From the NCBI RefSeq assembly GCF_029892045.1, contig NZ_CP120368.1, forward strand, positions 866,001 to 930,000: a DNA stretch of 64,000 nt. Reading direction: 5' to 3'. The notes below the pieces were generated by a model. That model was not told the DNA's origin. It made no database searches and saw only the letters and a program-made list of their open reading frames with translations. This DNA comes from Sinorhizobium numidicum (lineage in GTDB: Bacteria > Pseudomonadota > Alphaproteobacteria > Rhizobiales > Rhizobiaceae). The position numbers and the translations under genes are program-made. Positions 25,083-32,152 of the stretch are shown piece by piece (positions within the stretch are counted from its first letter, which is position 1; the number at the start of each line of letters is the position of its first letter).

Positions 25083-26354
25083 TCAGGCGCGTTCGCGCTC
25101 AACGGCGCGCCAGCCGATGTCGTGGCGATAGAAGCCGTTCTCCCAGGAAATGCCGCTGAGGACGGCATAGGCTGCGTCCTTCGCATCGCTGACGCTTTCT
25201 CCCATGGCGGTGACGTTCAGCACGCGCCCTCCGCAGGCAACCAGTTGGCCGTCCTTTATCGCTGTCCCTGCATGGAACACCTTCGTCGTCGCAGACGGAT
25301 CGGGCAAAGCGGTGATCGGTGTGTTCTTCTCGTAAGTGCCCGGGTAGCCTTTCGAGGCCATCACCACTGTGAGCGCCGCCTCGTCTCGCCATTCGATGTT
25401 CATGCCGCCAAGCGTTCCGGTCGCGGCTGCATAGAGCAGCGGCAGCAGATCACTTTTCATCCGCATCATCAGCACCTGGCATTCGGGGTCGCCGAAGCGG
25501 ACATTGTATTCGATGAGTTCCGGTCCCTTTGCGGTGATCATCAGCCCGGCGAAGAACACTCCGGTGAAGGGATAGCCGCTCTCGGCCATGCCGCGCATCG
25601 TCGGTTGGATGATTTCCTTCATCGTCCGCTCGACCATTTCAGCCGACATTACCGGCGCCGGCGAATAGGCGCCCATGCCGCCGGTGTTCGGCCCCGTATC
25701 GCCATCGCCGACGCGCTTATGATCCTGCGCCGAGGCGAGCGGCAGCGCGCTCTCGCCGTCGCAGAGGCAGAAGAAACTTGCCTCCTCGCCATCGAGATAG
25801 GCTTCAACGACGACTTCCGCGCCGGCTGAGCCGAAGGCACCCGCGAAGCACTCGTCGACGGCCGCAAGCGCCTCGTCGAGCGTCATCGCGACGGTAACGC
25901 CCTTGCCGGCAGCAAGGCCGTCGGCCTTGATGACGATCGGCGCACCATGCTCGCGGATATAGGCCTTGGCAGGTGCGGCCTCAGTGAAGCGGTCATAGGC
26001 GCCGGTCGGGATTCCATATTTGGCGCAGAGGTCCTTGGTGAACCCCTTGGAACCTTCAAGCTGAGCTGCGGCAGCCGAAGGACCGAACACCGGAATTTTG
26101 GCGGCGCGAAGGACGTCTGCGAGACCGGCGACGAGCGGCGCCTCGGGGCCGACGACGACGAAGTCGATCGCCTCCCGGCGGCAAAACGCGGCAACGGCCT
26201 CGTGATTTTCGGTGTCAAGCGCAACGATTGTCGCTTCTTCGGCGATGCCCGGATTGCCGGGGGCGGCATAAAGCGCAGTCAGTTCCGGCGACTGCGCGAT
26301 TTTCCATGCAAGTGCATGTTCGCGTCCGCCCGATCCGATCAGAAGAACCTTCAT
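25083..26354 (-). CDS. purD: Phosphoribosylamine-glycine ligase (GAR synthetase)
   Basis: A 423-residue ATP-grasp enzyme, step two of de novo purine synthesis: phosphoribosylamine + glycine + ATP. The N-terminus has [16 protein letters not shown], then [27 protein letters not shown] (ATP-grasp) and [15 protein letters not shown] (Mg2+ site). Length is normal. It is the only purine gene in the window. A weak candidate promoter (CTTGAC-N17-CTAACC) lies upstream. Confidence 0.97.
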
Positions 26355-26453: not shown

Positions 26454-28832
26454 TCAGGCCAGAGCGGCAGCAGCCGGCCAGGCGACGAGTTCTTCGGTCG
26501 CCGGCCCCTCAGGGGAGCACACCGTTCGCGTCAAGGCCCAGATCGCCAGATCGTCCAGTGAAAGGGGTTTGCTGATCAGATATCCCTGAAACCGATCGCA
26601 GCCGGCAGCAGTGAGCATGGCCAACTTCTCCGGCGTATCCACTCCCTCGCCGACTACCGCCATGTCTTTTGCATGGCAGAGTGCGATCACCGCTTGGAGC
26701 ACGGGAAGCGATTGTGAGGCCGCCAGGTTTGAAACCAGGGCCCTGTCCAGCTTGATGGTGTCCGCGGCATAGTCAATGATCTGCTGCACCGAGGTGTAGC
26801 CGGCGCCAAAATCGTCGATCGAAAGACGGAAACCTTGCCGCCGCAATTCCTCGATATTCCGGTGCAATTGATCGCTGACTTTGACGGCAAAGGTTTCCGT
26901 GAGCTCGATATCGATCGATTGCGGTTGAATCCCGTGGCGCGTCAGGCGGTCGGAAAAATAATCGCTGATTGATCGCGAGTGCAGTTCGGCCGAAGAGATA
27001 TTGATCGCCAACACCGTTTGCGGTCCAAAAAGGGATTTCAACTGGGCGCAATCGGACATCGCCTTGTCGATGACCCACCAGTCGATCTTGGTGAAGAGGC
27101 CGGAGCTCTCGGCGATCGGCACGAATTCGTCCGGCGTGACGCTGCCGAGCACGGGCGAGTGCCAACGCAAAAGAGCTTCGCAGCCGGTGACTTGACCGAG
27201 TGCGTCCACGATCGGCATGTAGACGAGGCGAAACTGCTCGTCGGGATCGAGCGAGCGCAATTCCTCCTGAATTTGGCGCAAACGGGTACGCTTGTCGTTG
27301 ATCGCGCGCGAAAACCGGGCGGAACGGTTCTTGCCGCCGCTCTTTGCCTGGTACATCGCGGCGTCGGCATTGGAAATCAGTTCGGCGATTGTAGATGCGT
27401 CGTCCGGACAGATGGCCGCACCGATACTTGCGGTCACCGGATAGCGCCTGCCCGACACTTCGAAGCCGCCGTCAAACAGGGCGAGGATTGCAGCGGATAT
27501 TTCCCGTACCGTACCGTCTCCTGGCCTCGAACGCACAAGAACCGCAAATTCGTCGCCCGATAAACGCGCGAGGATCGCCGGCTTCTGTCCTCGCTTTCGG
27601 GTGATGGTGTCGACACTGTCCGCAATCCGTGCGGCCAGTGTTTTCAAAAGGTCGTCGCCGACGTTGTGGCCGTGCTTGTCATTGACGAACTTGAAATTAT
27701 CGATGTCGATGAACAGCAGGCTGCGTTTTTCACCGGCGGCGATCGCCTCGCCAACGGCGGTGGCGGCAAGCATGTTGAAGTGCGCACGGTTGCTGATGCC
27801 GGTGAGCGTGTCCGTCCAGGAGCTTTGCTGTACGAGCTGCAGCGAATGAACCGACTGGCGATGTAGTTCGCGGATGTTCTGGGTCAGACGGCCGATCTCT
27901 CCGGCTTCCTTCACATCCGCGATGTCGTCGCGGGCACCGGCCATGACTGCCATGACGTTGGCGTCGAGCGTCGCGATCGGGCCGGTAATGAAGCGGCGGA
28001 TCAGCACGATAATCAGGCAGATGGAGAAGAGACTCATAACCAGAGCGCCGAGAGCGAGCAGCACTTTCTGGCGCAGCATCTGGTTGTTGAAATGCGCATC
28101 GGAAATTGTGAGCGTCGCATGGAGCGATGGACCAAGAGGCACGCTTGCCGAAAGGTTGTCGGTTATTGCCAGGGGCCAGGGCTGCAGAACGATGTCGGCG
28201 CCATATTCCTTTTTCAAGGCGGCCTGCATGTCGAGGAAGCGGTCGGGTTGCACCGCCACTTGCATCAGCAGCGCGCTTGCCTTGGCACTCGGCATCGGGC
28301 GTCCGAAGGTGATCGGATCGACGAACAGCGAGTAGACGATTCTGGGCCGATCGCCGGCGCCGTGAAGATAGGTCCAGTCGCCAAGCTTGGAGCGTCTGGT
28401 CAATTGCCTGGCAAGCTCGACCTGCGCCTGGTCGATCTCGGCGAACGGATCCCAGCTGTTTTCGAAATAGTATTCGGTTTCCAGTTTCGAATTGAAAATG
28501 ACAAACGAGACGAAGCCCATCGGGTCGTCCGAGAGTGATTTTACGCTCTCCTGCAGGCCCACCCCGAGTGCGTTGGCGCGATAGCTCCTGTCTGTCTCGG
28601 AGACGAACTGACGCAGCGCATTGCCGTTCAGCAAAGCATTGAGGAAGCCCTTGCTTCGCCGAACCTCGTTCTGGAAGACGGCGGCGGTATGCTCGAGCCG
28701 TTGCGATAGCTTGGCGTGCTCGAGCGCGCGGATCGATCTACTCTGGGCGATGTGAACAGAAAAGGCCGCGAGAAGATAGCCCGCCAGCACCACAGGAAAG
28801 ATAAGGATGAGCGCGCGTTTGCCGAGGGTCAC
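26454..28832 (-). CDS. Membrane GGDEF-EAL protein (diguanylate cyclase/phosphodiesterase) with periplasmic sensor domain
   Basis: A 792-residue protein: helix 1 (about 8-28), periplasmic domain (29-256), helix 2 (257-279), HAMP-like linker (280-335), GGDEF (about 336-505) and EAL (about 530-785). The cyclase motif is SGDEF (425-429), an accepted variant, with FIDIDNFKFVND upstream; the RxxD inhibitory site is absent. The phosphodiesterase part has EALLRW (552-557), NISS, ELTE, DDFGAGYTS, IKLD and EGVD, so both activities look possible. The GTG start overlaps the stop of the upstream binding-protein gene by 4 bp (GTGA), so translation is coupled. The pairing recalls MbaA with NspS. Confidence 0.93.
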   Translation of the reverse strand: MTLGKRALILIFPVVLAGYLLAAFSVHIAQSRSIRALEHAKLSQRLEHTAAVFQNEVRRSKGFLNALLNGNALRQFVSETDRSYRANALGVGLQESVKSLSDDPMGFVSFVIFNSKLETEYYFENSWDPFAEIDQAQVELARQLTRRSKLGDWTYLHGAGDRPRIVYSLFVDPITFGRPMPSAKASALLMQVAVQPDRFLDMQAALKKEYGADIVLQPWPLAITDNLSASVPLGPSLHATLTISDAHFNNQMLRQKVLLALGALVMSLFSICLIIVLIRRFITGPIATLDANVMAVMAGARDDIADVKEAGEIGRLTQNIRELHRQSVHSLQLVQQSSWTDTLTGISNRAHFNMLAATAVGEAIAAGEKRSLLFIDIDNFKFVNDKHGHNVGDDLLKTLAARIADSVDTITRKRGQKPAILARLSGDEFAVLVRSRPGDGTVREISAAILALFDGGFEVSGRRYPVTASIGAAICPDDASTIAELISNADAAMYQAKSGGKNRSARFSRAINDKRTRLRQIQEELRSLDPDEQFRLVYMPIVDALGQVTGCEALLRWHSPVLGSVTPDEFVPIAESSGLFTKIDWWVIDKAMSDCAQLKSLFGPQTVLAINISSAELHSRSISDYFSDRLTRHGIQPQSIDIELTETFAVKVSDQLHRNIEELRRQGFRLSIDDFGAGYTSVQQIIDYAADTIKLDRALVSNLAASQSLPVLQAVIALCHAKDMAVVGEGVDTPEKLAMLTAAGCDRFQGYLISKPLSLDDLAIWALTRTVCSPEGPATEELVAWPAAAALA

Positions 28833-29869
28833 TGGAAATTCGCCAATGTGCTGATGATCCGTCGGCGCGCCTGCACCGAAGGAACGGAGAGTTCCTGTTG
28901 GTATTGGCTTTTTGCCAGAATTTCGGGTGGCGGATAGATTTCCGGATCGGAGCGCGTCGCCTTGGGAAGCAACGCCAAAGCCGCACTGCTCGTGGTCGGC
29001 ATAGTCAGCGCCATCGCGTTTGCGGCCGCGCTCTCCGCCGAGCCGATGAAGTCGAGAAACTCAAGCGCGCGCCGCTTGTTTGGCGACGCCGAATTCGCCG
29101 CCAGGCAATCGACCCAGGAAAGCGTGCCTTCATTCGGGACCGAATAGCGCCACAGCCCGGACACGCCCACCTTGTCGTTGAGCACATGCTGATCGCCGCT
29201 ATAGCCGAGGGCCATATGGATGTCGTCGCCGAGTACCGGGTCCTGGATCGACGTGATTGCATAATCATAAGTCAAGACGAACGGCGCCTGTTTCTTCATG
29301 AGATCGAATGCGGCCTTCAGCGTTTCGTTGTCGTTGGCATTGATGGAGGTGCCGAGCAGCATCAACGGCGGCACGAATGCCTCGGTGTGATCGCTGATCA
29401 TGGCGATATGTTTCTTGAGCGCAGATGCCGGGCGCATCAGATCCTGCCAGGAGGTCGGTGGCCGCGTGATGACATCGGAACGATAGAGAATGCCTACGGT
29501 GCCCCAAAAATAAGGCAGGCCGAATCCCGCACAGCGCTTGCGCCATTCCGGCGCGTAGTCCTTGAGGGAAGGCACGTTCGTTTCGGCGAGCGGCGCGAGA
29601 ATGCCTCTTCTGCCGAAAAGTGCTGCCGCGTTTTCGCCGACGACGACCAGATCTATGTTGCTGCTCGGATTCGCGAGGATCTCGTCTCGGGCATCGCCGC
29701 TGTCATAGTTGATCTGACGAATGGCAACGCCGGTTTTCTCCATCCAACGGTCGACGACCTTCTGGTCGATATAGGATTCCCAGATAAGCAGGTTGAGTGT
29801 TTCGGCACGGCTCGGTGACGTCCAAATCAGCGTCGCCACCAAAACGGAAATAGCCGTGCACCCCCTCAT
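28829..29869 (-). CDS. PotD/NspS-like periplasmic binding protein without transporter
   Basis: A 346-residue protein with a signal peptide (residues 1-22, ending PSRA). The mature start ETLNLLIWESYIDQKVVDRW and YFWGTVGILYRSDVI, plus DIHMALGYSGD, follow the polyamine-type (PotD) binding-protein pattern with aromatic and acidic pocket residues. AGGGG precedes the ATG at 29869. No permease or ATPase gene is adjacent; the next gene in the operon, overlapping by 4 bp, is the membrane GGDEF-EAL protein. I infer it serves as ligand sensor for that enzyme rather than in uptake. Ligand uncertain. Confidence 0.88.
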   Translation of the reverse strand: MRGCTAISVLVATLIWTSPSRAETLNLLIWESYIDQKVVDRWMEKTGVAIRQINYDSGDARDEILANPSSNIDLVVVGENAAALFGRRGILAPLAETNVPSLKDYAPEWRKRCAGFGLPYFWGTVGILYRSDVITRPPTSWQDLMRPASALKKHIAMISDHTEAFVPPLMLLGTSINANDNETLKAAFDLMKKQAPFVLTYDYAITSIQDPVLGDDIHMALGYSGDQHVLNDKVGVSGLWRYSVPNEGTLSWVDCLAANSASPNKRRALEFLDFIGSAESAAANAMALTMPTTSSAALALLPKATRSDPEIYPPPEILAKSQYQQELSVPSVQARRRIISTLANFQ

Positions 29870-30030: not shown

Positions 30031-31227
30031 TTATCGTGCCGGTATTTTCGGCAGGAAGACGGTGAAGATGCCGAGCAGTGGCAGATAGGAGCAGATGCGA
30101 TAGACGAACTCGATGCCGTGGCTGTCGGCAAAGATGCCGAGCACCGCGGCGCCCATGCCGCCGAAGCCGAAGGCGAAACCGAAGAAGACGCCCGCGATGA
30201 GCCCCACGCGACCGGGTACGAGCTCCTGCGCGAAAACGACGATCGCGGAAAAAGCCGATGAGAAGATCAAGCCGATGACGATGCTGAGCACGCCTGTCCA
30301 GAACAGGTTCGCATAGGGAAGCAGAAGCGCGAACGGGATAACGCCGAGGATCGAGAACCAGATGACGAAGCGCGCGCCATACCGGTCGCCGATTGGCCCG
30401 CCGAGGAAGGTGCCGGCAGCCGCCGACCCAAGAAACAGGAACAACATCAGCTGCGCCTGCTGCACGCTGGTGCCGAACTTTTCAATGACGAAAAAGGTGA
30501 AGTAGCTGGAAACACTGGCGAGGTAGACATTCTTTGTTGCCGTCAGCAGCACGAGGATCGCGACCGCCCACAGGACGCGGGCCCTCGGCAGGGGCAGCGC
30601 GCGGCTGGGCGCGGAGCGGCTCATCGTCGTGCGGCGATGCCGCACGTACCACGTGCTGACCCAGGAAAGCACGAAGAAGCCGATGATTGCGACGATCGAA
30701 AACCAGGCAAGGCTGCCTTGGCCGAATGGGATGACGATGAAGGCGGCGAGCAGCGGCCCCGCCGCGCTGCCGGCATTTCCTCCGACCTGGAACAATGACT
30801 GAGCCAAACCATGGCGGCCGCCCGAGGCGAGCCGGGCGACGCGGGAGGATTCCGGATGGAAGATGGCCGAACCCACGCCGATCAGGCTTGCCGCCACCAG
30901 TAGCATCCAGAAGTGATCGGCATTAGCGAGAAGGACGAGTCCAGAGCAGGTCGAAAGCATGGCGACGGGGAGCGAATAGGGGAGCGCCCACCGATCGGTG
31001 ACGATGCCGACCGCCGGCTGCAACATCGAGGCCGTCACTTGAAAGGTGAAGGTCAGGAGGCCGATCTGGACGAAATCGAGAGCGTAATTCTCCTTGAGCA
31101 GCGGGTAAATCGCCGTCAGCAGCGACTGCATGATGTCGTTCAGCATGTGGCAGAAGCTGACGGCAAGGATGACGGAGAAAGCTGTCTTTTCCGGGCTGAT
31201 GCCGCCCGCGGACGTAACCGATGCCAT
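30031..31227 (-). CDS. MFS transporter, fosmidomycin-resistance (Fsr) type
   Basis: A 398-residue transporter with about 12 helices. FCHMLNDIMQSLLTAIYPLLKENYALDF near the N-terminus (split: CHMLNDIMQSLL and YALDFVQIGLLTFTFQ) is characteristic of the Fsr group, which also has GVGSAIFHPESSRVARLASGG-type residues (seen as SAIFHPESSRVARLA). Fsr exports fosmidomycin in E. coli; the natural substrate is unknown. The ATG at 31227 follows AAGGAACATCTC. The AraC gene is divergent with 109 bp between the starts. Confidence 0.87.
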   Translation of the reverse strand: MASVTSAGGISPEKTAFSVILAVSFCHMLNDIMQSLLTAIYPLLKENYALDFVQIGLLTFTFQVTASMLQPAVGIVTDRWALPYSLPVAMLSTCSGLVLLANADHFWMLLVAASLIGVGSAIFHPESSRVARLASGGRHGLAQSLFQVGGNAGSAAGPLLAAFIVIPFGQGSLAWFSIVAIIGFFVLSWVSTWYVRHRRTTMSRSAPSRALPLPRARVLWAVAILVLLTATKNVYLASVSSYFTFFVIEKFGTSVQQAQLMLFLFLGSAAAGTFLGGPIGDRYGARFVIWFSILGVIPFALLLPYANLFWTGVLSIVIGLIFSSAFSAIVVFAQELVPGRVGLIAGVFFGFAFGFGGMGAAVLGIFADSHGIEFVYRICSYLPLLGIFTVFLPKIPAR

Positions 31228-31336
31228 GAGATGTTCCTTCCGAACGGCCCGCTGTCGGAACCTTCCGTTCATCTCTAGCCCGCTTGCTGCTGGCCTGCTT
31301 TTGTGATTTGGTCTAGTTCTTTCGCGAGTGGGCCAC

Positions 31337-32152
31337 ATGGCGAAACCCGATCAACATTATCTGCCGGCGCTGCCGGATGCGGACCATTTCAGAAGTCTGG
31401 AATGGATTGAGCAGGCGAATGTCCCCGTTCTGGCAATCGGGCGGGATTATGGCTCCGGGCTGATCGTACCCCTTCACAGCCACAGCCGCACTCAGCTCTG
31501 GTGGGCGCGCTCCGGAGTTGTACTGGTGCATACGGCAGGCGGACGATGGATGATTCCTCCTGGCCATGCCCTGCTCATCCCCGCCGGCATGGAACATTCG
31601 GCTGAGATGGTGAGCGACGTGCGGATGCATTCGATCTACATCTCGTCGGCGATGAACCGGGCTCGCCGGCCTTTGGTGCTGGAGATCACCGCTCTTGTCG
31701 GCAGCCTCATCGACGAACTCGTCGGTCTTGAGAACGAAACGACATCGGACCGGCGCGAGCAACTGATCACGGATTTGTTGCTCGAGGAAATTCCACGCCT
31801 TAAGGAGCGGCCGCTCGGTCTGCCGTTTCCACAGGACCGCAGGCTCGCCGCCCTCTGCCGGCAATTTTTGAAAGCGCCTTCGGCAAACGCCAATACCGAT
31901 GAGTGGGCTGCACGCCTGGGCATCAGCCGCCGTTCTTTCACGCGGCTATTCCGGCGCGAGATGGGCATCAGCTTCGTCACTTGGCGCCAGCAGGCCTGCA
32001 TCTTCGCCTCGTTGCCGCGCATTGCCGATGGCGAACCGGTTACCACCGTGGCGCTCGATGCCGGCTATGACAATGTCGCCGCGTTCACCACCATGTTTCG
32101 CCGGATGCTAGGCGCGCCGCCGAGCCTCTATCTCCGCGGCCAGCAGACGTGA
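31337..32152 (+). CDS. AraC family transcriptional regulator with cupin domain
   Basis: A 271-residue regulator: an N-terminal cupin (VPLHSHSRTQLWWARSGVV in parts; PGHALLIPAGMEHSAEM) and a C-terminal AraC helix-turn-helix (DEWAARLGISRRSFTRLFRREMG and VALDAGYDNVAAFTTMFRR with LGAPPSLY). It is divergent from the Fsr-like MFS gene and is the probable local regulator of it. The ATG at 31337 is preferred; an in-frame GTG at 31328 precedes it. Confidence 0.9.
   Translation: MAKPDQHYLPALPDADHFRSLEWIEQANVPVLAIGRDYGSGLIVPLHSHSRTQLWWARSGVVLVHTAGGRWMIPPGHALLIPAGMEHSAEMVSDVRMHSIYISSAMNRARRPLVLEITALVGSLIDELVGLENETTSDRREQLITDLLLEEIPRLKERPLGLPFPQDRRLAALCRQFLKAPSANANTDEWAARLGISRRSFTRLFRREMGISFVTWRQQACIFASLPRIADGEPVTTVALDAGYDNVAAFTTMFRRMLGAPPSLYLRGQQT

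Follow-up and report, generated by a model that had tools for sequence, protein, structure and literature searches.

A probable NspS–MbaA sensor pair in Sinorhizobium with a binding pocket unlike that of its close relatives

The overlapping genes and their products

The 64,000-nucleotide stretch of DNA analysed here, hereafter the window (Sinorhizobium numidicum, contig NZ_CP120368.1, positions 866,001 to 930,000), comes from a genome of three contigs and 6.72 Mb and carries on its minus strand two overlapping genes that resemble nspS and mbaA of S. meliloti and Vibrio cholerae. The nspS-like gene (28829..29869, ATG at 29869) encodes a periplasmic polyamine-type solute-binding protein of 346 aa, and the mbaA-like gene (26454..28832, GTG start) encodes a GGDEF-EAL membrane protein of 792 aa; the products are called NspS and MbaA below. 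The end of nspS and the beginning of mbaA have four bases in common, GTGA (28829..28832, minus strand), formed by the stop codon TGA (28831-28829) and the start codon GTG (28832-28830). The reading frames, coordinates and 4-bp TGA/GTG overlap given in a preliminary description of this DNA are borne out by the open reading frame (ORF) calls and the junction bases. Of the 42 loci of named relatives (named loci), 40 retain the GTGA junction, as do all 30 loci fetched for the genus (genus loci), the window's own among the latter; the two sets have species in common. Therefore, the pair and its overlap represent more than a chance arrangement.

MbaA consists of a first transmembrane segment (TM1), a periplasmic dCACHE-like domain, a second transmembrane segment (TM2), a HAMP-like stretch, an SGDEF diguanylate cyclase and an EAL phosphodiesterase. 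Hydropathy reveals two hydrophobic stretches, 3-30 and 255-289, which flank a periplasmic part of about 225 residues, and Pfam recognises the GGDEF (122 bits) and EAL (205 bits) domains. The motifs SGDEF (425-429), EALLRW (552-557), ELTE (643-646) and DDFGAGYTS (673-681) are intact and no RxxD is present at the inhibitory-site position, where the residues before SGDEF are VDTITRKRGQKPAILARLSGDEF; on both points the sequence reading agrees with the preliminary description. In the periplasmic domain, Pfam detected no sensor family. The modelled periplasmic part matches solved dCACHE sensors over its whole length, with LuxQ among the fold matches, and we add here its assignment, as modelled, to dCACHE/LuxQ-like domains; a literature search on this domain and dCACHE returned a single paper, whose passages give no fold for MbaA.

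The N-terminus of NspS (MRGCTAISVLVATLIWTSPSRA) resembles by eye the signal peptide ascribed to it in the preliminary description, but the hydropathy cut flagged nothing in this protein. NspS matches the Pfam families SBP_bac_8 (98 bits), SBP_bac_6 and SBP_bac_1, and its fold and sequence are PotD/PotF-like. Its membership in the PotF or PotD equivalogs is ruled out by NCBIfam scores far below the cut-offs (90 bits versus 636 for PotF and 89 versus 582 for PotD). Databases confuse signalling NspS with transport PotD/PotF, many of the listed NspS-type entries being named “ABC transporter substrate-binding protein”. The window NspS is 81% identical to that of S. psoraleae, 80% to that of S. terangae and 70% to that of S. 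medicae; for residues 1-330 of MbaA, identity is 85% with S. terangae and 83% with S. meliloti (cluster P0127). The sequences indicate that the organism of the window is a Sinorhizobium other than S. meliloti.

Kinship with the published NspS–MbaA system

In 2023, the S. meliloti orthologs smc00991 and smc00992 were given the names nspS and mbaA, and their function was studied by mutation (PMC9993111). The gene order fsr-nspS-mbaA, the gene overlap (counted there as 3 bp), SGDEF, EAL, the absence of RxxD and the protein topology are common to that pair and to the window. Since the S. meliloti pair is already published, we reject a novel system, and the question raised in the preliminary description, whether rhizobia were already known to have such a pair, is answered. 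It is highly probable that the window pair is an NspS–MbaA sensor-transducer, as had been proposed from the letters of the DNA; three lines support this identity, namely synteny with the published S. meliloti genes, the position of NspS in the tree and the modelled dCACHE-like domain. The pair is the Sinorhizobium copy of a published sensor, and what is new is only its binding pocket, which is unlike that of close relatives.

The tree of binding proteins includes 33 rows, of which 26 fall on the NspS side, the window protein among them, and 7 are Pot-type; the two sides are split by a branch with 100/99 support. A comparison of this kind with PotD and PotF was suggested in the preliminary description. 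Gene context was read for 12 NspS-side rows (the window, L048, G587, G298, G356, G066, G142, G326, G098, G307 and second proteins of G066 and G252), the other 14 being protein records without context, and all 12 lie directly before a GGDEF-EAL gene. The preset NspS labels did not form one clade (2 changes): the second proteins of G066 and G252, labelled “other”, fell inside, and each directly precedes another GGDEF-EAL gene of its genome. Two vibrio-like genomes (L134:4541-8002 and L135:4574-8038) carry a divergent second binding protein that has the cysteine pair described below and whose gene is immediately followed by one for a GGDEF-EAL protein.

NspS shares its fold, aromatic box and key carboxylates with PotD, PotF, SpuD and SpuE, but the Pot-type rows lack C113 and C255, occupy the opposite side of the tree and are encoded with transporters where context was examined. 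Both cysteines are present in 120/120 proteins, the best 120 of 193 matches. In a second search (best 120 of 576 matches; the named ones seen are gamma-proteobacteria), both occur in 90/90 proteins P0241-P0330 and in 1/29 lower-scoring proteins P0331-P0359, the exception, P0331, being the top scorer of the 29; the P0330/P0331 boundary was set by score, and these counts come from protein records, gene context being read for loci. In the listed matches, the cysteine pair thus appears to separate NspS-type from transport-type binding proteins. A C113-C255 disulfide is our guess; a literature search on NspS with disulfide, cysteine or polyamine returned nothing on this pair in titles and abstract openings.

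The immediate neighbours of the pair are conserved. Upstream, an MFS transporter gene (30031..31224, minus) takes the position that fsr (smc00990; the gene is described in PMC12095868) has in S. meliloti, and purD (25083..26354, minus) lies downstream and serves as a synteny marker only; both were identified by Pfam and synteny. The order fsr-nspS-mbaA-purD is near-universal among the 42 named relatives, with fsr within the stretch in 40 loci and purD in 41; one stretch (L018) begins after fsr, and the Ectorhizobium locus L048 has other neighbours and a longer nspS/mbaA overlap. The fsr-like gene is regarded here as a conserved neighbour of the sensor. An AraC-type regulator gene is located at 31328-32152, divergent from the fsr-like gene. 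The ten neighbouring ORFs between 21.8 and 34.2 kb, the part of the window scanned for ATP-binding cassette (ABC) genes, were classified by Pfam as AraC, cupin, LysE, 2-thiouracil desulfurase, no hit, PurD, MFS, AraC, MipA and UbiA; none of them is an ABC permease or ATPase, in line with the preliminary description, which had seen none in reach.

An NspS ortholog is present in 32/33 genomes of the genus; the exception, G673, is 85% complete and also lacks an MbaA match. The MbaA N-terminal alignment matched 18/151 genomes of the family sample (16 long matches, 2 weak only), 9/297 of the order sample (2 long, namely the own genome and G587, and 7 weak) and, at E <= 0.001, 25/398 of the phylum sample. 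The latter comprise 12 long matches (at least 92 bits, own genome included) and 13 weak ones (at most 33 bits), mostly to the membrane-HAMP part. In a published survey, the pair occurred in 222 of 16,076 proteobacterial genomes, including Sinorhizobium/Ensifer, with largely conserved synteny (PMC9993111).

In S. meliloti strain 1021, biofilm and exopolysaccharide (EPS) were lowered by putrescine and spermine, while in the nspS insertion mutant, in which mbaA is expected to be lost too, they stayed high, biofilm still falling by 15-25% with some polyamines (PMC9993111). According to the proposal of the S. meliloti authors, MbaA works as a phosphodiesterase if NspS has no ligand or carries putrescine, diaminopropane or spermine. 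In V. cholerae, binding of NspS to MbaA raises cyclase activity, partly even when NspS is empty, and phosphodiesterase activity is maximal when NspS cannot bind (PMC8967002). An effect of NspS–MbaA on symbiotic efficiency is mentioned in PMC12095868 with reference to the 2023 paper and “results not shown”; for the window pair, a role in symbiosis would go beyond what the sequence shows.

By analogy with V. cholerae and S. meliloti, we infer the following chain for the window species. NspS would be exported to the periplasm, where a polyamine or a similar cation would be bound between its two lobes and close it. The bound or closed state would govern the docking of NspS on the dCACHE-like domain of its partner, much as LuxP docks on LuxQ. 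The SGDEF and EAL domains would receive this signal via TM2 and the HAMP-like helix, and the balance between making and breaking of cyclic di-GMP (c-di-GMP) would shift. Without productive docking, MbaA would be mainly a phosphodiesterase. The LuxP–LuxQ system presumably resembles the window pair in that a binding protein docks on a tandem-PAS/dCACHE periplasmic domain, but the two systems differ in that LuxP comes from a different family of binding proteins and LuxQ from the histidine kinases.

The binding pocket and its types

Counted on the alignment, window NspS positions 30, 32, 78, 80, 81, 226, 252 and 254 correspond to PotF 37, 39, 85, 87, 88, 247, 276 and 278, for which residue roles have been described; Asp occupies PotF position 39 in at least 96% of PotF relatives (PMC8666671). 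The NspS core is formed by W30, E31, D59, E79, C113, E163, Y203, Y223, D226, W240, W252, D254 and C255, and these thirteen positions, which include the aromatic box and the key carboxylates, are identical in 71/72 loci. The variable pocket positions of the window protein are S32, Y55, G58 and G78.

The V. cholerae pair resembles that of the window in architecture and overlapping genes, and probably in seven of the eight predicted norspermidine contacts. These contacts (W41, D70, D90, F131, Y233, D236, W261 and D263) were mapped via vibrio relatives, and on this mapping the matching window residues would be W30, D59, F121, Y223, D226, W252 and D254. The differing residue, D90, would map to G78 if the numbering offset (W41 to 30, D70 to 59) is constant, the alternative being E79. 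The enzymes also differ, V. cholerae MbaA having EVL where the window has EAL (PMC9993111). Between S. meliloti and V. cholerae, identity is about 32% for NspS and about 31% for MbaA (PMC9993111).

Four residues, at 32, 55, 58 and 78, define the pocket types. The 30 genus loci comprise SYGG (12), AFDD (9), DFDD (8) and AFGG (1), and the 42 named loci SYGG (34), AFDD (4) and one each of AYGG, SYSG, AFGG and QYGN; in both sets D58 and D78 occur only together. The window is SYGG, S. fredii and S. americanum are AFDD, S. glycinis is AFGG, and S. medicae (P0027) and cluster P0015, named from Sinorhizobium sp. KGO-5, are DFDD. D58 and D78 are also carried by the named Vibrio NspS proteins (P0270, P0308 and P0323). 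For S. meliloti itself, the type is deduced from S. medicae and P0015 and from the stated conservation of the V. cholerae contacts (PMC9993111); the two systems differ in species and presumably in pocket, SYGG in the window against DFDD. Because the window pocket type differs (S32 and G78), the ligand of its NspS cannot be taken over from S. meliloti. A polyamine, as inferred in the preliminary description, is no more than a plausible ligand of this pocket, which differs from the S. medicae type at 32, 55, 58 and 78.

Contrary evidence, alternatives and significance

Several observations weigh against the interpretation as a polyamine-responsive NspS–MbaA pair. In the EAL domain of MbaA, position 539 is Met (YMP), invariant in 21 aligned relatives, where typical EAL domains have Gln. 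Pfam did not detect HAMP in the window MbaA; it was found in 2/18 relatives with a best E of 0.0072, and one vibrio-like MbaA reached 22 bits against a cut-off of 25. For S. meliloti MbaA, HAMP was reported via Prosite (PMC9993111). The window NspS has S32 where PotF has D39 and G78 where PotF has S85, and because of these two residues a polyamine ligand appears less certain. Furthermore, 4/12 long phylum matches of MbaA (G182, G252, G332 and G352, all vibrio-like) have no nspS adjoining mbaA. Thus, the pair can be split, the vibrio-like enzyme being kept without the binding protein. In a genome-wide look, G182, G332 and G352 yielded eight weaker relatives; the six of these that the tree includes all group with the Pot-type proteins. 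In these four genomes (L115, L116, L118 and L117 for G182, G252, G332 and G352), mbaA follows a gene that by eye is chorismate mutase/prephenate dehydratase-like, nspS being absent in between, and G066, G098 and G326, which have the same genus code, carry nspS at that position.

The divergence of the two proteins belongs to the same contrary evidence. In 38 of the named loci, a set without the DFDD type from which L017, L018, L047 and L048 were excluded for frame or missing neighbours, the partial correlation of NspS with the periplasmic part of MbaA was 0.42 given purD, 0.43 given fsr and 0.47 given the cytoplasmic part, and the reverse value (cytoplasmic given periplasmic) was -0.08. The raw correlations of NspS were almost the same with purD (0.82) and with the periplasmic part (0.84), to which fsr correlates more closely, at 0.96. 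In 29/30 genus loci (L107 excluded), the partial correlation was 0.37 for the periplasmic part given GGDEF and 0.42 for GGDEF given the periplasmic part, and in all 67 loci the values were 0.16 and 0.34. Since the signal was lost when the genus loci were added, co-divergence is not robust and we do not count it as support. This loss is due to six of the eight DFDD loci, which pair a distant NspS (about 72% identical to that of the window) with a window-like periplasmic domain (80-82%, compared to 82-84% in SYGG and 68-74% in AFDD loci). In these loci (L098, L099, L104, L108, L109 and L112), the overlapping genes have discordant histories; a pocket re-tuned while its partner stayed the same would account for them, and so would interspecies recombination.

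One alternative, which we regard as possible yet rather unlikely, retains the circuit and changes the ligand: with S32, G58 and G78 in its pocket, NspS would respond to a cation that carries less charge or has another shape than the one recognised in S. meliloti or V. cholerae, such as an amine of diamine size, one similar to agmatine or one derived from plants. The near-invariance of Asp in PotF relatives at the equivalent of position 32 (PMC8666671), the equivalence of 78 with PotF 85, the occurrence of pocket types as sets over the genus and named loci with D58 and D78 only together, and the change of pocket type on a similar partner in the six DFDD loci all favour it. On the other hand, the thirteen core positions are constant and E31, D59 and E79 could take over, and the combination of Ala32 and F55 is also seen in a protein from outside the genus Sinorhizobium (P0060), so that drift at these sites is possible.

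Much less probable is that the NspS–MbaA system of the window is decaying or decoupled, with MbaA as a constitutive phosphodiesterase to which NspS binding is irrelevant. The vibrio-like genomes without adjoining NspS would agree with it, as would the copies with shifted frames: a one-base frame shift near residue 377 of mbaA in S. fredii USDA 205 (L017) and in a genus genome (L107), real or a sequencing error, and the spread of nspS and mbaA each over several frames in Rhizobium sp. RCAM05350 (L047), by decay or assembly error. However, both genes are open in the window, their overlap is conserved, and in the 30 genus loci, which cover nspS and mbaA up to residue 500, these frames are open apart from that of mbaA in L107.

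We consider it very unlikely that NspS serves, or also serves, an ABC transporter encoded elsewhere, its overlap with the GGDEF-EAL gene reflecting mere co-expression: its PotD/PotF-like sequence and fold and the 41 SBP_bac_8 matches in the genome, which leave room for orphan transporters, are opposed by the 100/99 branch, by the GGDEF-EAL gene that follows all 12 NspS-side rows of known locus and by the closest paralog in the own genome (L125:5278-9423, C2:747 kb), which has its own complete binding protein-ATPase-permease-permease operon by Pfam. NspS as part of an ABC transporter was rejected on account of this operon and of the ten neighbours.

The finding of an NspS–MbaA pair in the window confirms the published rhizobial system, and the C113/C255 pair may provide annotators with a simple mark of signalling NspS as opposed to transport PotD/PotF. 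A tentative, rather improbable extension is that the pocket of one conserved pair was re-tuned within the genus, so that species would read different host or soil polyamines with the same c-di-GMP circuit, the window representing an acid-poor version. Such re-tuning was perhaps stepwise, with S/A32 and Y/F55 first, then D58 and D78 together, and then D32; branch support for this order is weak (86/65). Should ligands differ between the pocket types, Sinorhizobium would present a natural mutant series, partly on a very similar partner enzyme, for studying how binding proteins switch from one signal molecule to another and whether polyamines of the host are the driving force.

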